Source: Prochlorococcus marinus str. MIT 9301 (lineage in GTDB: Bacteria > Cyanobacteriota > Cyanobacteriia > PCC-6307 > Cyanobiaceae). Taken from it: a stretch of DNA of 64,000 nucleotides. The position numbers and the translations under genes are program-made. A model generated the notes under the pieces. That model did no database searches, was not told where the DNA came from, and was given only the letters and a program-made list of their open reading frames with translations. Below, one piece after another: positions 36,308 through 62,839 of this stretch. Within the stretch, counting starts at the first letter, position 1. Every line of letters begins with the position of its first letter. The stretch is taken from assembly GCF_000015965.1 (NCBI RefSeq), contig NC_009091.1:620001-684000 (forward strand), in the 5' to 3' direction.

Positions 36308-37498
36308 ATGAGTTTAAAAAAAAATATAAACGATTTTAAGAAAAATTATTCCCTGGGAATAATTGGAGGTGGTCAATTGGCTTTGATGTTAACCGAGGCA
36401 GCAAAAAAAAGAGATCTTGAAGTATGTGTGCAAACAAAATCTTGTGATGATCCTGCTGGGTTAAAAGCAGATCATGTCATAGAAGCTGATCCTTTAAAGA
36501 TAAGAGGTAATAAATCATTAATTAATGAGTGTGAAAAAATAATTTTTGAAAATGAATGGATAAAAATTGATAAATTAAATTTAATTGACAATAAAGATAT
36601 TTTTGTTCCAAGCCTTAATGCAATTAAGCCATTAGTAGATAGGTTTTCTCAAAAAAAATTAATAGAAAGAATGAATATTCCCTGCCCAAAATGGATAAGT
36701 ATTGAAGATTTTAAAAATCTCTCGGATCAGGAAATCAATAATTGGACTTTTCCTCTAATGGCAAAATCAAATAAAGGTGGATATGACGGCAAAGGGAACA
36801 GAAAAATAAAGACAAAAGAAGATTTAGATTCTTTTTTAAAAGAGAACAATTCTAATGAATGGTTAATAGAAGAATGGATAGAGTATGAAAAAGAACTGGC
36901 TCTTGTTGGTTCGAGAGATAGGACCGGTAAGATAAGATTCTTTCCAATAGTTGAGACGTTCCAATCAAACCACGTTTGTGATTGGGTTCTTGCCCCTGGA
37001 ACAAATGAATATGATTTGAACTTATTTGCAATAAATATTTTCTCTTCAATAGTCAATGAACTTAATTACGTTGGAGTTTTAGCTATTGAATTCTTCTATG
37101 GAGATAATGGTCTTTTAATTAATGAAATAGCTCCTAGAACACATAACTCAGCTCATTTCTCTATTGAAGCTTGCACTTCAAGTCAGTTTGATCAATATGT
37201 TTGCATTTCTTCTGGGATAATGCCACCTGAAATTAAAATGAACTGTGAAGGTGCAATTATGATAAATTTACTGGGTTTAAAAAAGAATTTCCCAATCTCA
37301 ATGGAAACCAGAATTAAAATGTTATCTGAAATTGAGGGTTCTAATATTCATTGTTATGGCAAATCTCGCGAAATTCTGGGAAGAAAAATGGCTCACATCA
37401 CATTTTTATTAAATGGTAAAACGCATTTAGAAAGATATGATGAAGCTCAAATTTTATTAACTATGGTAAGAGACATTTGGCCATCTCCAAATGCATAA
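36308..37498 (+). CDS. purK: N5-carboxyaminoimidazole ribonucleotide synthase
   Basis: ATP-grasp enzyme of purine synthesis, 396 residues. The N-terminal dinucleotide-like loop GIIGGGQLALMLTEAA, ATP-grasp KSNKGGYDGKGNRKI, and the metal ligand segment FFYGDNGLLINEIAPRTHNS are present. It precedes the 6S RNA gene by about 20 bases, the arrangement known for cyanobacterial 6S RNA next to purK. Confidence 0.95.
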   Translation: MSLKKNINDFKKNYSLGIIGGGQLALMLTEAAKKRDLEVCVQTKSCDDPAGLKADHVIEADPLKIRGNKSLINECEKIIFENEWIKIDKLNLIDNKDIFVPSLNAIKPLVDRFSQKKLIERMNIPCPKWISIEDFKNLSDQEINNWTFPLMAKSNKGGYDGKGNRKIKTKEDLDSFLKENNSNEWLIEEWIEYEKELALVGSRDRTGKIRFFPIVETFQSNHVCDWVLAPGTNEYDLNLFAINIFSSIVNELNYVGVLAIEFFYGDNGLLINEIAPRTHNSAHFSIEACTSSQFDQYVCISSGIMPPEIKMNCEGAIMINLLGLKKNFPISMETRIKMLSEIEGSNIHCYGKSREILGRKMAHITFLLNGKTHLERYDEAQILLTMVRDIWPSPNA

Positions 37499-37862: not shown

Positions 37863-38162
37863 ATGACTTTAGGAGGAGCTAATGTTTGGACTAATTTTTC
37901 TTACGGTTATCGTAATGAGTCCCCAAGTGGTTGGTTGCTTAGCCCAGACCGCACCAGATTAATTTTATTTATAAGGAATAAAAAATCTCCAAGAAATAGT
38001 ATGAGGATTTTTGCTCATACATATTATGCCAATGATCTTGGTGAGCCAATGGCAATTAAATCATCCACTCAAATGTATTTGGATAATGCTTGGGATAAAT
38101 GGCATGACCTTCAACTAGAAGGTTGGACTTTTGAAGAACTTGAATTACCTGAATCTGTATGA
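37863..38162 (+). CDS. DUF1651 protein 1
   Basis: A 99-residue protein with GWLLSPDRTRLILFIRN at the start of the domain and AWDKWHDLQLEGWTFEEL at the end, the DUF1651 layout; function unknown. The ATG has no evident ribosome-binding site. The stop overlaps the next ATG (ATGA). An overlapping +1 frame at its 5' end is discussed under 37882-37962. Confidence 0.8.
   Translation: MTLGGANVWTNFSYGYRNESPSGWLLSPDRTRLILFIRNKKSPRNSMRIFAHTYYANDLGEPMAIKSSTQMYLDNAWDKWHDLQLEGWTFEELELPESV
37882..37962 (+). CDS. Overlapping 26-codon hydrophobic frame inside DUF1651 gene 1
   Basis: The +1 frame starts ATG after AGGAGG with 5-base spacing and encodes MFGLIFLTVIVMSPQVVGCL followed by AQTAPD, ending at TAA. 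The equivalent frame in the second DUF1651 gene (40327-40407) has exactly the same length and starts MFGLIF. Substitutions between the two are mostly conservative here, while the DUF1651 frame differs radically over the same bases. It is likely a real small membrane peptide or an internally initiated leader, but this is unproven. Confidence 0.45.
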   Translation: MFGLIFLTVIVMSPQVVGCLAQTAPD

Positions 38163-38450: not shown

Positions 38451-38564
38451 TTATTTAGTTTTTATTTTTTTCTTAATTCTTAGAAAACCATAAGTTGCAA
38501 AGCCAATCAAAAACATATCCAAGTAAATATGCCAAGTAGGAAAAATCTGGTGTATTAATTCCAT
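38451..38564 (-). CDS. Small single-TM protein (37 aa)
   Basis: The ATG at 38564 overlaps the stop of the mini-ligase gene (TAATG). The product has one hydrophobic segment (WHIYLDMFLIGFATYGFL) and a basic C-terminus (RIKKKIKTK). It is coupled to the ligase gene and may be a membrane accessory; function unknown. Confidence 0.55.
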   Translation of the reverse strand: MELIHQIFPTWHIYLDMFLIGFATYGFLRIKKKIKTK

Positions 38565-39313
38565 TAACGTTTTATTGCCACCTGCCAATAAGGATAATCT
38601 AAATTTGATTTTTCTCTAATCAGTTGTAATTTTCTAGAATTTATTTTTACTACTATTCCATCTGTTGGATATTCACTAAAAAGCTTCCCTTCTAACCATC
38701 GTTTTCTAAATACTTCAACTTGGCTCGTAAAGTTGCATGAAATATCCTGAGGGATCTTGAAGCCAAGCTTAGAAAGACTCTTTTTGGACTCATATTGGTT
38801 AAGTGTTGAATTAAGTATTTGAAATGCGCAGAAGCTAAGACTTTGAGAAAATCCTTCTTTAGCTCTTAGAAATCCAGAAGCGATTCTCTGGGAGATATTT
38901 GGACTTTGGTTAGGTGCGTATAATTCACCTCTAACTTGAAGAACTCCTTGTAAAGGGAGATTATTGGGAATGTCTTGGATTTTAATAAGTTTACTAGTAA
39001 CATCTGTTCCTTTTCTTGAAATTGCTTTTTCCAATGTTCCATCCCTATATTGCAAAGCAACAGCACAACCATCAATTTTTGGTTCAATTAATAATCTGGT
39101 ATCTGCTAATAATCCTTTCAAAAATTCATCTATTGAATCCTTTTCCAATGAAGGTAAAACTAGTTTATTTTTCTTTTTAAAGTAATCACAATTAGGGTTT
39201 GTTCTCAATAAATTTTTTTCAAGTTGGTCGAACTGCTTATCAGAGATTAAAGCATTACCGTTTCTATAATTATCGTCATACCATTCAATTCGTTCTTCTA
39301 AATAAGTCTTCAT
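38564..39313 (-). CDS. Minimal NAD-dependent DNA ligase (LigA-type, adenylation core only)
   Basis: Domain Ia remnant (IEWYDDNYRNGNALISDKQF) precedes a nucleotidyltransferase domain with motif I EPKIDGCAVALQYRDG (Lys near residue 79), motif III RGELY, motif IV TDGIVVKI and motif V YWQVAIK. At 249 residues it lacks the OB fold, zinc finger, HhH and BRCT parts of the usual 670-residue LigA. Function is unknown; it could join nicks with a partner or adenylylate another substrate. An ATP-dependent ligase is also encoded (60210-61850). The upstream gene ends at 39314, adjacent. Confidence 0.8.
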   Translation of the reverse strand: MKTYLEERIEWYDDNYRNGNALISDKQFDQLEKNLLRTNPNCDYFKKKNKLVLPSLEKDSIDEFLKGLLADTRLLIEPKIDGCAVALQYRDGTLEKAISRKGTDVTSKLIKIQDIPNNLPLQGVLQVRGELYAPNQSPNISQRIASGFLRAKEGFSQSLSFCAFQILNSTLNQYESKKSLSKLGFKIPQDISCNFTSQVEVFRKRWLEGKLFSEYPTDGIVVKINSRKLQLIREKSNLDYPYWQVAIKR

Positions 39314-39520
39314 TTAATACGATGGCTTAAGTTTTTGGATAGTTATCCAACTTGGTTTATCCATAATCCATTTTTCTCTATCTTCATATTTAACAGTCCA
39401 TAAAAGAAATGAAGAAATTTCTTTTAGAGTTATGCCAACCAAATATCTTGTTTTTTGACTTATTGATATAAATCCAGATAATAATATTAATAAAATAAGT
39501 TTAAGCATATTTTTAATCAT
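39314..39520 (-). CDS. Small membrane-anchored protein (68 aa)
   Basis: N-terminal hydrophobic helix (MLKLILLILLSGFISIS), then a basic/aromatic tail with WIMDKPSWITIQKL. It abuts the mini-ligase start with no gap, so it is likely cotranscribed with it. No family recognised. Confidence 0.5.
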   Translation of the reverse strand: MIKNMLKLILLILLSGFISISQKTRYLVGITLKEISSFLLWTVKYEDREKWIMDKPSWITIQKLKPSY

Positions 39521-39550: not shown

Positions 39551-39808
39551 TTAATTAATGCAATTCTTATAACCTTCAATCTTTGCTAGTTCATCAATAT
39601 TTAAACCTGTTTCTTCTAGTAAAGTTTCTCCTATATCGTCCTTATTAAATTTAGTTAAAGCTCCTTTAGTAGAGTACTTAATACATTGGTTTTTGTATTT
39701 TGCTTCTTTGACAACAGGAGATAAATAAAAACCAAACAAGATGATAAAAGCTCCATAGGTTACAACTTTTCTATGGTTTTTCCACCATTCATAAAATTTA
39801 TTCGACAC
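39551..39808 (-). CDS. Hypothetical protein with TM segment (85 aa)
   Basis: An N-terminal amphipathic and TM region (KVVTYGAFIILFGFYLSP) is followed by a soluble domain with two Cys (NQCIKYS and YKNCIN at the end). No family recognised. Confidence 0.55.
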   Translation of the reverse strand: MSNKFYEWWKNHRKVVTYGAFIILFGFYLSPVVKEAKYKNQCIKYSTKGALTKFNKDDIGETLLEETGLNIDELAKIEGYKNCIN

Positions 39809-40307: not shown

Positions 40308-40598
40308 ATGACTTCAGGAGTCGCTAATGTTCGGACTTATTTTTATTGTGGCAGCTTTATTGACCCCCCAACTGGCTGGTTATTTAACAAAAAAAGTGGT
40401 TTATTAATTTTTTTTGAGAGTTATAAGAAATCTGTATCTAATAACTTAAAAGTATATACTCATCTTTTCTATGCAAATGAATTAGGTGAACCAGCCCAAA
40501 TTAAAAATTCAAGACTTCATTCTATTGAGTGCGCTTGTGAAACATGGAATGAATTAATTTCAGGAGGTTGGCAAATTGTTACTAATAAATTCCAGTAA
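40308..40598 (+). CDS. DUF1651 protein 2
   Basis: A 96-residue paralogue of the gene at 37863 with GWLFNKKSGLLIFFE and ACETWNELISGGWQI. It shares upstream promoter and 5' coding bases with the first copy, indicating duplication. Function unknown. Confidence 0.75.
   Translation: MTSGVANVRTYFYCGSFIDPPTGWLFNKKSGLLIFFESYKKSVSNNLKVYTHLFYANELGEPAQIKNSRLHSIECACETWNELISGGWQIVTNKFQ
40327..40407 (+). CDS. Overlapping 26-codon hydrophobic frame inside DUF1651 gene 2
   Basis: ATG preceded by AGGAG with 6-base spacing; encodes MFGLIFIVAALLTPQLAGYL followed by TKKVVY, TAA at 40405-40407. It has the same length as the frame in gene 1 and an identical first six residues. Support is comparative only. Confidence 0.45.
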   Translation: MFGLIFIVAALLTPQLAGYLTKKVVY

Positions 40599-57075: not shown

Positions 57076-57726
57076 TTAAGGTTTTATTTCGATAATTTCT
57101 TCTTCAGAAACAATTGCCCATTTTTTAAATGACTTTTTGCAGGGATATCCTCCTGTTAAGTCTCCAAATGCAGGTAAAAATAAAGTATTTTTATTCTTAT
57201 CCATTGCAAAACACCTAAATGATAATTTATCCCCATTGTTTTTTATATAGATTTTTGGATGATAATGTCCACAAATGTTCAATGTTTTATTTTCGCCTAA
57301 ATCAACTGGTTCATGACTAAAAGTGATATTTTTAGTTTTTCTAATATCAAAAATTTTAATATTTTTAATATTGCAACCTACATCGTGATTTCCTAGGACT
57401 AGTTCAACGTTAGTTTTAAGTAGTTCAGGAAGATCCTCAACTTTTTTTTGAAGAATTTTATCTATTGAATATTTGCTATGGAATAAATCTCCTAATATTA
57501 TTAACTTTTCAGGACTATATTTTTTTACTATTTTTTTTATTCTTGCAAAATTGTTTTTATCTGAATTATTAGTAAGAGGTATACCATTTTGCTGAAAATA
57601 CTCAGCTTTCCCAAGATGTATATCGCATATTAATAACTCTTTTGTTTCCGGTAGAAATAACGCCCTTGAAGGAAGCATCTCCAACAATGTATCTTCCCAA
57701 CAAAATTTAAAAGAACTTTTTTTCAT
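57076..57726 (-). CDS. Ligase-associated metallophosphoesterase (PdeM type)
   Basis: ICDIHLGKAEYF, ILGDLFHSK, LGNHDVG and CGHYHPK are the calcineurin-like metal-binding set. 216 residues. Its start abuts the stop of the helicase gene, and the TIGR04123-type enzymes belong to the ligase-associated DNA-repair cassette. Last of four genes. Confidence 0.85.
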   Translation of the reverse strand: MKKSSFKFCWEDTLLEMLPSRALFLPETKELLICDIHLGKAEYFQQNGIPLTNNSDKNNFARIKKIVKKYSPEKLIILGDLFHSKYSIDKILQKKVEDLPELLKTNVELVLGNHDVGCNIKNIKIFDIRKTKNITFSHEPVDLGENKTLNICGHYHPKIYIKNNGDKLSFRCFAMDKNKNTLFLPAFGDLTGGYPCKKSFKKWAIVSEEEIIEIKP

Positions 57727-60213
57727 TTAATCACTATATTTTTTTATAAGTTTTTCTACTCTTTTTTCTAATGGCTCATTGCTTAAAGTATTTTTAAGTC
57801 TTTCAACTAGTAAAGGGAAAGCAAAAGGAGTTGGAGTTTTTATCTCGTTTAGTAGCATTTTTAAATTTTTTAATCTTTCTAATGATCTAGATATTCTTTT
57901 ATTTTCTAATTGATATTCTTTAACTTCTTGATGCGATTGTTTTATCAAAAGATGACCTTCTTCATATTTAGTAAACACATCGTAGAAAAGACTTGAACTT
58001 ATTTGAAGTTGGGAAGAAGTTTTTGTTTTGGTTGGATTATTTTGATTTACTAGTCCACTTATTTGGGCAATATTTTTAAATCTACGCTTTGTTAATTCTG
58101 AAAAATTAATTGCATTTTCTAGATCTTCTTCTAATTTTTTGTTATTCAAAAAGTAATCAGCTTCTTTTTTTATTATGGAAAAATCATAATCTTCTGCAGT
58201 AGTTAAGCTGAATCCAAAATCATTAGCAGTAATACTAAATGTAGATTTTTTTAATTTTGCCAATCTCAAAGCCCATAAAAATGCAATTCCTTCATTTACA
58301 AATTTGCCATCAAGTGTAAAAACAAAAAGATTTGATAAATCCTTGGTTTTATATATTTCTATAAGGAATTCGTCTTTCTTTGGAATATTTGAAAGAACTT
58401 TTTGTCTCTTCAATATTGGGCGTAATGAATTGAGTTCAGGATTTAAGCAATCATGATTTTTTAGTTCGTTGCATATATCTATTTCTTTTCTCAAACTCTC
58501 ACAAAGTAGATCTGAAATTGCCATTTGACCTCCAACCCATGCAGGAATTAGAGAACTTTTTTTGGTTGATTTTTTAACGTATAAAATCATATCTCTTATT
58601 CTTACAAAATGAAGCATTTTGCCGGCAAAGTAAAATGTATCTCCGGGATTTAATTTTGAAGCAAAATTCTCTTCTAAATTACCTAAGGATTTACCTTTCA
58701 TATATTTGACATTCACAAATTTGTCACTTGTAATTGTCCCAATATTAAACTTATGCATTCTTATTAAAGATTTATCTTTTACAAAATATTTAAAGTTTTC
58801 ATTATTATTTTGTGCTTCTTCTTTAACTATCTTTTTATATTTTGGATATGCTTTAAGACATTTGCCTCCATATTCTAAAAAGTCAATACACCAATTCCAA
58901 TCTTTATCTTTTAAGTTTCTATAACTCCAGCAATTTTTAATTCTTTCTTTCTCAATTTTGGGATCAAAGCCATTTCCACATGCCAAACTTATTAGATGTT
59001 GTAGAAGCACATCATAAGATAATTCAGGAAGTCTAATTTCCTCAGATATACCACTTTTTATTATTCTTCTCATTGCACTAATCTCTAATAATTCTAAAGA
59101 ATTAGTAGGCATAAAAATTATTTTTGATTTTCCACCTGGTCTATGAGCACTTCTTCCCGCTCTTTGGATAAGTCTAGCTAAATTCTTTGCACTACCAATT
59201 TGAACTATTTGATCTACAGGTTGAAAGTCAACTCCTAAATCTAACGAGCTGGTGCAGACTACCCATTTTATTAATCCGTCTTTAACCCCTTCTTCAACTC
59301 TTTTTCTATCTTCTTTATCCAGGGAGCCGTGATGAAGTGCAATTTTGTCATCCATCTCTGGGAGAAAAAACTTAAGACATTGATACCATCTTTCAGATTG
59401 ATTTCGGGTATTGGTGAATAATAAGGTGCTTTTATTTTTATCTAGGATTTTTAATAGTGAAGAATGACTTCTAATCCCAAGATGCCCACTCCATGGAAAG
59501 GTAGTTTCCTCCTCTGGTAAAACACTTACAATTTCGATCTCTTTTTGAATATTTGTACTAATAATTTTGGGTTTAATAGCGCTCATCCCAACTATTGCTC
59601 TTGCTGCTTCTTCAACATTTCCAATAGTTGCAGACATTGCCCAAATTTGTAAATTTTTTATATTACCTCTTAGCCAACTTAAAGATAACTCGCACTGGTT
59701 TCCTCTTTTACTACCCATTAATTCATGCCATTCATCAATAATTATTGATGATAAGTCCTTGAACAGATTATTAGATTCTTTATTAGAAAGTAAAAGAGAT
59801 AAAGACTCTGGAGTTGTAATAAGAATATTAGGTGGTTTAGCTAGTTGCTTTTTCTTTTCATATGGGGTTGTATCCCCGTTCCTAATTTCAACAGTGATTT
59901 CTTTATTAAAATGAAAAGCTGCTAGTTGTATTGAATTTTTTAGATCTCTACTTAGTGCCTTTAAAGGGGTTATCAATAATATATTCACACTTTTATTATT
60001 TTTGGGATCTTCTATCTTTGATAGAGGTCCCATTAATGCAGCATAAGTTTTGCCGCATCCAGTAGGAACTTGTATTATTCCACTCTCTCCATTTAAAAAT
60101 GCTTCCCAAGATTCGATCTGATAGGGTATTGGCTCCCATCCATTTGTGGAGAAAAACTGTTTAATTTTAGAAATTAAATTATTTTGCTTATTATTTTTCG
60201 TAATATTTTTCAT
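57727..60213 (-). CDS. Ligase-associated DEXH-box helicase (Lhr-core-like)
   Basis: Q-motif/Walker A PTGCGKTYAALMGPL, DEWHELMG (DEXH box), SATIGN, LHHGSLDKEDR and QRAGRSAHRPGG are the superfamily 2 motifs. At 828 residues it corresponds to the Lhr core without its long C-terminal extension, as in the TIGR04121 ligase-associated helicase. The ATG overlaps the ligase stop by four bases. Confidence 0.85.
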   Translation of the reverse strand: MKNITKNNKQNNLISKIKQFFSTNGWEPIPYQIESWEAFLNGESGIIQVPTGCGKTYAALMGPLSKIEDPKNNKSVNILLITPLKALSRDLKNSIQLAAFHFNKEITVEIRNGDTTPYEKKKQLAKPPNILITTPESLSLLLSNKESNNLFKDLSSIIIDEWHELMGSKRGNQCELSLSWLRGNIKNLQIWAMSATIGNVEEAARAIVGMSAIKPKIISTNIQKEIEIVSVLPEEETTFPWSGHLGIRSHSSLLKILDKNKSTLLFTNTRNQSERWYQCLKFFLPEMDDKIALHHGSLDKEDRKRVEEGVKDGLIKWVVCTSSLDLGVDFQPVDQIVQIGSAKNLARLIQRAGRSAHRPGGKSKIIFMPTNSLELLEISAMRRIIKSGISEEIRLPELSYDVLLQHLISLACGNGFDPKIEKERIKNCWSYRNLKDKDWNWCIDFLEYGGKCLKAYPKYKKIVKEEAQNNNENFKYFVKDKSLIRMHKFNIGTITSDKFVNVKYMKGKSLGNLEENFASKLNPGDTFYFAGKMLHFVRIRDMILYVKKSTKKSSLIPAWVGGQMAISDLLCESLRKEIDICNELKNHDCLNPELNSLRPILKRQKVLSNIPKKDEFLIEIYKTKDLSNLFVFTLDGKFVNEGIAFLWALRLAKLKKSTFSITANDFGFSLTTAEDYDFSIIKKEADYFLNNKKLEEDLENAINFSELTKRRFKNIAQISGLVNQNNPTKTKTSSQLQISSSLFYDVFTKYEEGHLLIKQSHQEVKEYQLENKRISRSLERLKNLKMLLNEIKTPTPFAFPLLVERLKNTLSNEPLEKRVEKLIKKYSD

Positions 60214-61850
60214 GATATTTTTTTCATTAGTTCATAAGCATTCTCTAAGCTATCTGCATCTTTAATTTTTTTATCTTTTCTCCATTTTGTTATTCTTGGA
60301 AATCGTACCGCTATGCCTGATTTATGACGATTAGAAATTTGTATTTTCTCAAAAGATATTTCGAATACCATTTCTGGTTTTAACGATCGAACAGGACCAA
60401 ATTTTTCTATTGTATTTTTTCTTATCCATTTATCTAGCTCTTTAATCTCAATATTCGTTAACCCAGAATATGCACTTGCAAATTTAATTAATTCTTTGTC
60501 TTTCCATAATGCAAAACTGTAATCTGTATACAGACCAGCCCTTCTACCGCTACCGCCCTTAGCGTAAATTAGAACAGCATCCAGTTGCATAGGATCAACT
60601 TTATATTTCCACCAAATACCTTTCTTTCTACCAGAGGAGTATATAGAAGTCTTTTTCTTAATTATTAATCCTTCAGTATTATTTTCTCGAGATTTTTCTT
60701 TATAGGCTAAAGCATCAGGCCAATCTTTTGGAAAGATTAAATCACATATTTTGAAAATATCAGAGATATTATTCTCAGTTTTAATTTGCCATTTTGAAAA
60801 ATATTTTTCTAACTCAATTCTTCTATTTTCTAATTTAATTTCTCTTATATCTCTCCCATTAATCTCTAAAAGATCATAAGCAATAAAAATAATTGGATAT
60901 TTTATTTGGATTGATTTAGTAGGAGACTTTCTATTTATTCTTTTTTGAAGTAAAGAAAAATCAAAGGCAATTTGTTCTTTAAAATTCCAAACTAATAATT
61001 CCCCATCAAGAACAAAATCATCTTTTATATTTGACATTTTCTCTACTAATTCTGGGAAAGATTCATTTACTAATTCTTGCCCTCTTGTCCATAACGAAAC
61101 ATTGCCTGATCTTTTAATTAATTGCATCCTTATACCGTCGTATTTCCATTCAAATTGAAAATCATTTATTGAATTTTTGAAGATTTTATCTTCAATAGTA
61201 TTTGCTAGAAGAAATGGAAATGGTTTGGAATTTAACTCTTGAAGATTGATATTCTTGTTAATTAAAAATTCATATGAATCAATTGAAGGTTTAAAATCAC
61301 CCATCAACCTATGAGAAATAATCTCTTCCTCAATATGAGTTAGTTTTGATATCGATTTTGTAATTAATCCGATAGAGACTCCTACTCTAAAAGTTCCTGT
61401 AAGAATTTTATTAAAAATTAGATGGTTATCTTCAGGTAATTTTTCCCAAAGATTTTTAATTTCTAAATTTTTCTGCTCGTCATTCAGTTTTGATAATTCA
61501 GGTATTGTTTCGCTTAGTAATTCAGTGAGACTTATATTTGACAATTTCTTTTTTCTAGAATTAGTTTTATTTTTAAGTAATAATGTTATTACCTCAGCAG
61601 AATCACCAACTTTTAAATAACATGTATCAATTAACCATTGAGGATATTCATATATGTGAGAAAAAAGATTTTTCAAATATCTTCCACTAATAAATCTCTT
61701 ATTACTTTTTCCAGTTAGCAAATATATTGCCCATGAGTTATCTATTGGATCATTAGATAAAAAATAATTCTTTAAAACTTCAATTTTATTATTTGTACTA
61801 TTAATTGAATCTAGATCGCCAAATAATTCTGAAAACTTTTTTAAGCTCAT
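60210..61850 (-). CDS. ATP-dependent DNA ligase (ligase-associated cassette)
   Basis: Motif I FEWKYDGIRMQLIKR (catalytic Lys), motif III DGELLVWN, IIIa FIAYDLLEI, motif IV TEGLIIKKK, motif V WWKYKVDPM. An N-terminal helical domain precedes the core. 546 residues. Starts immediately after the exonuclease gene, whose stop is two bases upstream. Confidence 0.9.
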   Translation of the reverse strand: MSLKKFSELFGDLDSINSTNNKIEVLKNYFLSNDPIDNSWAIYLLTGKSNKRFISGRYLKNLFSHIYEYPQWLIDTCYLKVGDSAEVITLLLKNKTNSRKKKLSNISLTELLSETIPELSKLNDEQKNLEIKNLWEKLPEDNHLIFNKILTGTFRVGVSIGLITKSISKLTHIEEEIISHRLMGDFKPSIDSYEFLINKNINLQELNSKPFPFLLANTIEDKIFKNSINDFQFEWKYDGIRMQLIKRSGNVSLWTRGQELVNESFPELVEKMSNIKDDFVLDGELLVWNFKEQIAFDFSLLQKRINRKSPTKSIQIKYPIIFIAYDLLEINGRDIREIKLENRRIELEKYFSKWQIKTENNISDIFKICDLIFPKDWPDALAYKEKSRENNTEGLIIKKKTSIYSSGRKKGIWWKYKVDPMQLDAVLIYAKGGSGRRAGLYTDYSFALWKDKELIKFASAYSGLTNIEIKELDKWIRKNTIEKFGPVRSLKPEMVFEISFEKIQISNRHKSGIAVRFPRITKWRKDKKIKDADSLENAYELMKKIS

Positions 61851-61852
61851 AT

Positions 61853-62839
61853 TTATTTTCCAAATAAAAGGACATTTATTGATTCCTTTTCAACTAAATA
61901 TTTACTTAAGGCTTCACTATCTCCATGATGAAAAAATACATTTTTTGCTTCAGACTTTTTTACTACTTCCAGAATTCCATCCCAATCCGCATGATCAGAA
62001 ATTGCGAATCCTTTATCATATCCTGATCTTTTTCTTAGAGCTCTTATTGACATCCATCCACTCGCGAAAGCTGTTTGAATGTTTTTGAAATTTTTTAAAT
62101 AAGAACCCTTACTTAAAGATGGCGGTAATAATATTAGACTTCCTTTAAGTTCATCTATCTTTTTTTTATTTTCAATTTTTATAGTATCTTTAATCTTAAT
62201 TCCAAGTTCCCTATAAATATTGTTCATTTTGTGAATACTTCCATGGGAATAAATATTGCCCTTAAAATTTGTTTGACTAATTTCGTTTAACAATCTCTGA
62301 GCTTTTCCCAGTGAATAGCAGAAAAGTAAAGAAGTTTTTTCTGGTGAATTAGTTATCCATTTTGAAATATCATTTGCTATTTTATTTGATTCATCCCACT
62401 TAAATATTGGCAAACCAAAAGTACATTCGCTTATTAAATAATCAGTTTTTACTATTTCATATTGTTTGCAAGTCTGATCTTTTTGAAGCTTAAAGTCACC
62501 TGAAATTAGCCATTTTTCATCAGCAAAAATAAACCTTATTTGACTAGATCCAAGGATGTGGCCGGATGGATGAAAAGAAATATTAATGCCATTTATCTTA
62601 AATTCTTCTCCATATTCAAAAGTCTTAATTTTGATATTATCTCCAACTCTTTCTTTAAGAATTATCGCAGTTTCCTTAGTAGAAATGTATTCTTCACAGC
62701 CAAATGTAAAGTGATCAAAATGAGCATGAGTTATTAATGCCTTTTTTACTGGCTTGCTTGGATCAATCCAAATATCAGCAAGTTCACAATAAAGATTTCC
62801 GTCTTTATATCTAATTAAATATTCTTGATTAGTTCTCAT
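61853..62839 (-). CDS. Ligase-associated MBL-fold DNA exonuclease
   Basis: Metallo-beta-lactamase motif THAHFDHFTFG (HxHxDH), HPSGHILGS, SGDFKL and SDHADWDG resemble SNM1/Artemis-like nucleases and the TIGR04122 ligase-associated exonuclease. 328 residues. First gene of the four-gene cassette, implying 5' resection coupled to ligation (inference from family context). Confidence 0.85.
   Translation of the reverse strand: MRTNQEYLIRYKDGNLYCELADIWIDPSKPVKKALITHAHFDHFTFGCEEYISTKETAIILKERVGDNIKIKTFEYGEEFKINGINISFHPSGHILGSSQIRFIFADEKWLISGDFKLQKDQTCKQYEIVKTDYLISECTFGLPIFKWDESNKIANDISKWITNSPEKTSLLFCYSLGKAQRLLNEISQTNFKGNIYSHGSIHKMNNIYRELGIKIKDTIKIENKKKIDELKGSLILLPPSLSKGSYLKNFKNIQTAFASGWMSIRALRKRSGYDKGFAISDHADWDGILEVVKKSEAKNVFFHHGDSEALSKYLVEKESINVLLFGK

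Follow-up and report, generated by a model that had tools for sequence, protein, structure and literature searches.

An OB-less NAD-ligase-type adenylation core in a Prochlorococcus genome, with relatives in marine phage contigs and mobile elements

We found a 249-residue NAD-ligase-type adenylation core that carries intact catalytic motifs, evolves under purifying selection and falls in a clade apart from the full-length ligases. Its wider family sits in phage and mobile-element contexts, and no OB or HhH half accompanies it in the loci examined. We read it, with a probability of roughly 0.5, as a stand-alone core for NAD-fuelled AMP transfer and strand joining that would belong to phages and mobile DNA, would have been domesticated here and would take its grip on DNA from other proteins.

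The window, meaning the whole stretch of DNA analysed, covers bases 620001-684000 (64 kb) of a 1,641,879-base single-contig genome (G000), from what we take to be a high-light Prochlorococcus. All positions are window coordinates unless given as genome:contig or locus:position. Prochlorococcus MIT 9401 (L066) and MIT 9314 (L122) are among the near relatives with the locus. On the minus strand, the order of transcription is 85-codon ORF, 68-codon ORF, 249-codon core and 37-codon ORF, and a DUF1651 gene stands on either side of this cassette:

37863..38162, plus strand: DUF1651 gene on one side of the cassette (PF07864, E 1.4e-10; matches G136:C1 652945-653241).
38451..38564, minus strand: 37-codon ORF with one hydrophobic stretch; its ATG shares one base with the core stop (TAATG).
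38564..39313, minus strand: OB-less NAD-ligase-type adenylation core, 249 aa (PF01653, phrog_3869, phrog_3359, AlphaFold2, 7k72 alignment).
39314..39520, minus strand: 68-codon ORF with an N-terminal hydrophobic segment; its stop abuts the core ATG.
39551..39808, minus strand: 85-codon ORF with one hydrophobic stretch, upstream of the 68-codon ORF on the same strand.
40308..40598, plus strand: second DUF1651 gene, on the other side of the cassette (PF07864, E 1.6e-13; synteny).

The ORFs of 249, 68 and 45 aa lie where the initial annotation had placed them. For the downstream small ORF, the alternative call (38451-38588, minus strand) has 45 codons with a TTG start at 38588, and 37 aa from the ATG is more likely than 45 aa from the TTG. 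Separately, about 18 kb from the core, the minus strand at window 57076-62839 encodes a metallophosphoesterase, an Lhr-type helicase, a 546-aa ATP-dependent DNA ligase and a metallo-beta-lactamase-fold protein, a group that looks like a DNA repair cluster.

At the domain level, PF01653 is the only Pfam match of the core (E 2.5e-20). Its best profile match in the libraries used is the phage NAD ligase family phrog_3869 (E 1.8e-31), and phrog_3359 (NAD ligase) is matched as well. Neither Pfam nor a profile of the LigA C-terminal half detected an OB (PF03120), zinc-finger, HhH or BRCT domain in the core, and the first description of it, as a LigA-like adenylation core of 249 residues lacking OB, zinc and HhH domains, was confirmed. 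The parts that it does contain are the following:

39164..39313, minus strand: Ia helical domain (NMN-binding type), about residues 1-50, from the alignment with LigA and phage ligases.
39068..39079, minus strand: motif I, K79-x-D81-G82, with the nucleophilic lysine of the LigA family (K79 and G82 kept in 96/96 orthologous loci, D81 in 94/96).
38924..38935, minus strand: motif III, VRGE, with E130 as the counterpart of LigA E173 (kept in 96/96).
38645..38662, minus strand: motif IV, D218-G-I-V-V-K223, with K223 as the counterpart of LigA K290 (D218 and K223 kept in 96/96).
38570..38572, minus strand: lysine of motif V, K248 (kept in 96/96).

The protein ends one residue past K248, ahead of where an OB domain would begin. 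In Ia, the alignment identified Y16-R17 and D25-x-x-F28-D29 as conserved residues; the cyanobacterial and viral full-length ligases mostly have YY where the core has YR, and we take H23 of E. coli LigA to be the counterpart of R17, beside Y16. For E. coli LigA, the roles of K115, D117, G118, E173 and K290 are tabulated in section 6 of PMC5052709.

An AlphaFold2 model of the core, made with a 41-sequence alignment, had a mean pLDDT of 88.4, and Foldseek led from it to the same NAD-ligase family. With VIA-align, whose table re-examines Foldseek matches only, 245 of the 249 model residues aligned to the NAD-bound adenylation domain of M. tuberculosis LigA (7k72; Z 24.2, rmsd 2.9), up to residue 325 of that chain. 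The structures 7k72, 1tae, 8jyd and 5tt5 align across model residues 1-249, and most other PDB rows over 52-249 only. The model also matched an uncharacterised 193-aa protein of Synechococcus phage S-CAM8 (BFVD G8EY44), with a TM score of 0.71 by target and 0.56 by query; searches of record NC_021530 with four profiles did not recover this protein.

We also looked for a separate second half of the ligase. Profiles of the LigA C-terminal half and of the OB part gave no credible match in 26 core-bearing cellular sequences, among them the complete window, or in 12 viral loci from eight contigs, the best non-control match being a weak one in L055 (E 0.005). Four controls were recovered (T5 in L060, L147, L153 and L160), of which L147 and L160 are rows of the profile and T5 and L153 are not. 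A half ligase of the T5 type was rejected: the core has no OB domain, and neither the 64-kb window nor the other core loci gave a second subunit.

For the conservation analysis, we examined 109 loci (L007-L035 and L061-L140), 96 with a core at least 80% identical to that of the window and 13 below. The 80 named loci are the best 80 of 528, which biases the set toward window orthologues. The 96 loci represent 95 distinct core sequences (L011 equals L135) from close, non-independent kin. Catalytic residues are kept in 94-96 of them. Pairwise dN/dS, calculated on equal-length sequences only from the window and 20 orthologous loci, had a median of 0.16 for the core (21 of 21 sequences), 0.15 for the 45-aa ORF (20 of 21), 0.28 for the 68-aa ORF (17 of 21) and 0.12 for the 85-aa ORF (20 of 21). 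On sequence grounds, then, the window core is an intact gene under purifying selection and no remnant; the initial annotation had named a remnant as an outcome that would count against it, and both the dN/dS and the kept motifs oppose that outcome.

The same annotation described two small membrane-protein genes that abut or overlap the core and proposed that membrane partners point to its role. Their adjacency held, and so did the three-gene order: all three small neighbours are present in 92 of the 96 loci (gene by gene, the 45-aa ORF in 94, the 68-aa ORF in 92 and the 85-aa ORF in 95). The core stop overlaps the small-ORF ATG as TAATG or TGATG in 93/96, and the 37-codon ORF has exactly this length in 88/96. 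The membrane nature fared unevenly. With one hydrophobic stretch each, the 68-aa and 45-aa ORFs reach a best 19-residue Kyte-Doolittle mean of 1.93 and 1.14, so that calling the 68-aa product a membrane protein is plausible, and for the 45-aa product the case is weak. Neither had a Pfam match up to E 1.

These small hydrophobic neighbours are, by their conservation, real genes limited to one clade. The 68- and 45-aa genes were found in none of the 13 loci below 80% core identity (E <= 1e-3; some of these loci offer a flank of 1.5 kb only, and two are the same contig), which, set against 92/96, makes the small-gene operon a feature of a single clade. Its least constrained member is the 68-codon ORF, which is missing, start-less or much shortened in 16/96 loci. 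It has to be considered whether the core works in a membrane-linked adenylyltransferase complex, with the tiny hydrophobic proteins as functional partners. The kept order, the stop/ATG overlap and the purifying selection on the small ORFs would suit such a complex, but an order shared by close relatives can be plain inheritance, the hydrophobicity of the 45-aa ORF is modest and the 68-aa ORF is broken or much shortened in those 16 loci. The restriction of the small genes to one clade leads us to regard the complex as unlikely. The idea that membrane partners define the role of the core was not supported by the comparison with the 13 more distant loci examined, in none of which these small genes were found beside it.

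At the family level, a first tree with 41 cores separated the OB-less cores from the other ligases with a support of 100/100. The 43 OB-less cores (37 cellular and 6 viral) of a larger, 62-row tree again all fell on one side of a branch (support 100/99) that was present in all 200 bootstrap trees, with 10 cyanobacterial LigA and nine viral ligases on the other side, each of the nine with an OB match. Both trees are midpoint-rooted, with several long branches flagged. The first tree and the motif table exclude fragments, duplicates and one over-long frame, and also two proper cores, L175 and L169; the check tree adds these two and leaves out L170, L176, L155, L149, L124 and L154. L169 is identical to L168, so its catalytic set is not intact, and L175 keeps the six positions by eye. 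The window core belongs to the OB-less family by its place on the supported side of the branch and by its end at motif V.

In the phylum sample, the family profile was matched in 288 of 291 genomes; outside the picocyanobacterial family, the matches listed are LigA-sized frames. A degraded host LigA was rejected as the source of the core, which lies outside the cyanobacterial LigA group in both trees. Since its relatives occur in mobile DNA and in the replication modules of marine phages, the core has the look of a retained phage-type enzyme, not of a host ligase in decay.

Catalytic conservation is uneven across the family. In the motif table, the six catalytic positions are kept in 6/6 viral cores and in 12/35 cellular cores, the window core included, and at least one is lost in the other 23; all 15 divergent cellular cores, on two tree branches, lack E130. 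The genome carries a second copy (G000:C1:1312507-1313253; L040:9508-10257) that is about 50% identical, with D to N in motif IV and K to E in motif V, and a related core in G264 (L043) keeps the catalytic residues. Thus, the fold can persist without the full catalytic set, and a simple one-function view of the family is disfavoured.

There is also, at G000:C1:1071322-1071396 (L003), a 25-residue stretch within a 26-residue frame that is 72% identical to the C-terminus of the core and is probably the remnant of a third copy.

The losses in 23/35 cellular cores, the missing E130 of the two divergent branches, the altered motifs of the paralogue and this small fragment could together mean that the core is a pseudoenzyme or a relic in slow decay, left at most with some structural or regulatory function. 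We judge this quite improbable for the window copy, as it and its orthologues in the 96 loci keep the motifs at a dN/dS of 0.16.

The clearest settings come from marine viral contigs. In seven of eight, the core comes after nuclease, primase-helicase and phrog_1924 ('minor tail') genes; the families were scanned in part on these contigs and the remainder was judged by eye from ORF starts. By scan, phrog_1924 was placed in five contigs (L141, L142, L143, L194 and L196), a nuclease in two (VRR-NUC in L143, resolvase-type in L142), a primase-helicase in L141, L142 and L143 (with VapE-like or Zn-ribbon types in L143 and L142) and a helicase in L142 and L194. Both L194 and L196 carry RecT-like and exonuclease VIII-like genes, and L195, from the same contig as L141, has a terminase. 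The eighth contig (L146) starts at its core, which is followed by a PD-(D/E)XK nuclease. The window protein alone found no relative in the viral contigs; the alignment query did. No other ligase was found on the core-bearing viral contig pieces by tblastn with two ATP ligases, a search that could miss distant ligases.

Several cellular relatives adjoin genes of mobile DNA. One core (L044) overlaps a serine recombinase by 4 nt, another (L051) overlaps a tyrosine-recombinase-like protein by 4 nt (PF00589, 26.6 bits with a cut-off of 27.1), and a third (L168) is followed by a gene with a weak likeness to excisionases (E 5e-4) and by a phrog_256 DNA helicase. Genome G282, from the same genus, encodes near the first of these cores and its serine recombinase a 540-aa protein (L044:6831-8453) whose prohead protease and HK97-type capsid domains suggest a capsid-carrying element.

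Some cellular cores also adjoin a whole or half tRNA-Pro, or tRNA-Ser. Whole or half tRNA genes occur no more than 700 bp away from 9/37 cellular cores and from 26/281 other ORFs of at least 150 codons in the same loci, a modest association (Fisher p 0.011, with non-independent loci). For the window copy, neither a tRNA in the window nor a tRNA fragment beside the gene was found, and the nine neighbouring proteins that were scanned include no recombinase.

The gene has a mobile history within the genus as well. Genome G136 is collinear with the window flanks (the counterpart of the gene at 36308-37498 at 651413, DUF1651 at 652945 and later neighbours at 653384 and 655371), and it has no core at the equivalent place, with one DUF1651 gene there versus the two that flank the cassette in the window. 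Its core, 73% identical, is at 626014, 167 bp from a tRNA-Ser. Collinear flanks with the core elsewhere indicate, from gene order, that the core gene was gained or moved within the genus.

These settings bear on what the core would act on. It could be a true adenylyltransferase with a target other than DNA, one that AMPylates a protein, an RNA end or a small molecule, or else an NAD sensor or NAD-consuming enzyme. Its AMP-transfer motifs are intact, it has no DNA-binding domain and the examined loci hold no ligase C-terminal half, all of which agree with such a target. However, the viral relatives sit among replication and recombination genes on contig pieces where tblastn with two ATP ligases found no other ligase, and DNA joining is the simplest fit to that module setting. 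We consider a non-DNA target a somewhat unlikely though serious alternative. Of the two roles first suggested, NAD metabolism is disfavoured, since the replication and recombination genes, recombinases and tRNA halves around the wider family point to DNA ends or nicks; nucleic-acid tagging is possible in the form of adenylylation of a DNA 5' end.

At the genus level, the replicative ligase itself appears to have changed. PF03120 is absent from 61/61 genus genomes (22 with a completeness of 90% or more) and from all 18 that are at least 95% complete, and it is present in 141/142 family members outside the genus. With the full LigA as query, 41 near-complete genus genomes gave short frames only, none past residue 332 of 690. 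A published statement on the genus is at odds with these OB counts, possibly because it was the mini core that was counted there. According to PMC11357015, the viral families of low-light strains include an NAD-ligase family.

The genome of the window encodes a 442-aa ATP ligase (G000:C1:1595843-1597168; L202:1844-3172) that is Pmar-Lig (6rau, E 2.6e-290, residues 2-442). Pmar-Lig is present in 18/18 near-complete genus genomes, and among the 142 others four gave weak matches only (best 2.9e-6). It is a three-domain ATP ligase, reported in PMC6698739 to seal nicks about as well as T4 ligase. The genus has apparently swapped its replicative ligase, LigA out and Pmar-Lig in, and PMC4378268 reports such an exchange of an NAD ligase for an ATP ligase in a bacterium. 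With this precedent, the core is not needed to explain replication.

With LigA absent, and with the two cores as the only PF01653 proteins found in the genome, one could still propose the core as the replicative ligase of the genus. The lack of any LigA OB match (0/61 genomes, 0/18 near-complete) would leave room for this, but Pmar-Lig occurs in every near-complete genome, and G167 (99% complete) has no core of the window type and a 50% identical match only. On the OB/LigA absence taken together with the constant presence of Pmar-Lig, we rejected this role, which we hold to be very improbable. The initial proposal of a role other than standard nick sealing was in this respect supported, in that the core is not a standard replicative ligase.

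We propose the following course of events for the strand-joining core. K79 would take AMP from NAD+, with NMN leaving, held by Ia. The AMP would then be handed to DNA, onto the 5'-phosphate of a nick or end that arises from recombination-coupled replication or from the integration of a phage or element. The grip on DNA, provided by OB/HhH in LigA, would be supplied by a protein of the module, such as an annealing protein, a nuclease, a primase-helicase or a recombinase. In the Prochlorococcus lineage of the window, one such gene would have settled beside two or three tiny genes, as part of a short conserved operon, and its role in the host would probably be accessory strand joining or repair and not the sealing of Okazaki fragments.

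We infer AMP transfer from the conserved active site and the fold, NAD as the donor from the family, DNA strand joining from the phage-module and recombinase contexts, and help in trans from the lack of DNA-binding parts in the core. Some observations speak against strand joining: R17 where Y is usual and, in the window, no tRNA and no recombinase among the nine neighbours. To our knowledge, no activity has been described for any member of the OB-less family. Among the open-access titles and abstract openings listed, none was about an OB-less NAD-ligase core. For the characterised NAD ligases, the nucleotidyltransferase and OB domains form the catalytic core (PMC5052709), so that strand joining without OB would be without any precedent that we found.

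More tentatively, the family as a whole could be a natural group of OB-less DNA ligases: an NAD-charged AMP-transferase that would borrow its grip from recombination proteins (an annealing protein, a resolvase-type nuclease, a primase-helicase or an integrase), spread through marine phages and picocyanobacterial elements, and domesticated where an ATP ligase replaced LigA. A conserved and selected OB-less family in phage modules and ocean phototrophs would be a test case for the smallest possible ligase and for the ways in which the grip on DNA can come in trans.

Among known systems, LigA (PF01653; 7k72, 1tae, 5tt5) shares with the core the Ia and nucleotidyltransferase domains, motifs I, III, IV and V, and the fold over 245 residues. 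It differs in having OB, zinc, HhH and BRCT domains, and the core forms a separate clade.

Tycheposons are tRNA-targeting integrative elements of picocyanobacteria. The window copy differs from them in that the window has no tRNA; its nine scanned neighbours include no recombinase. Several relatives of the core resemble them, since recombinase, excisionase-like or helicase genes or half tRNAs lie next to these relatives.

The T5 pair dnlj1/dnlj2 and the PR1 phage heterodimer (9hu3/9i5i) are like the core in that the adenylation protein is split off, with a similar Ia pattern and nucleotidyltransferase fold. Unlike the core, dnlj1 of T5 carries an OB domain (PF03120 at 252-321), and dnlj2 has BRCT with weak HhH and zinc matches. 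Another split NAD ligase lies on a viral contig (L153:8001-10381), with a 305-aa adenylation and OB protein, a 247-aa partner that matches the ligase C-terminal-half profile (E 1.1e-37) and two small genes between them.

Finally, Pmar-Lig (6rau, 6ras) shares the genome with the core and has a related fold in its AMP-transfer domain (6ras, Z 14.8). It differs from the core as a full three-domain clamp ligase that uses ATP and is reported to seal nicks.
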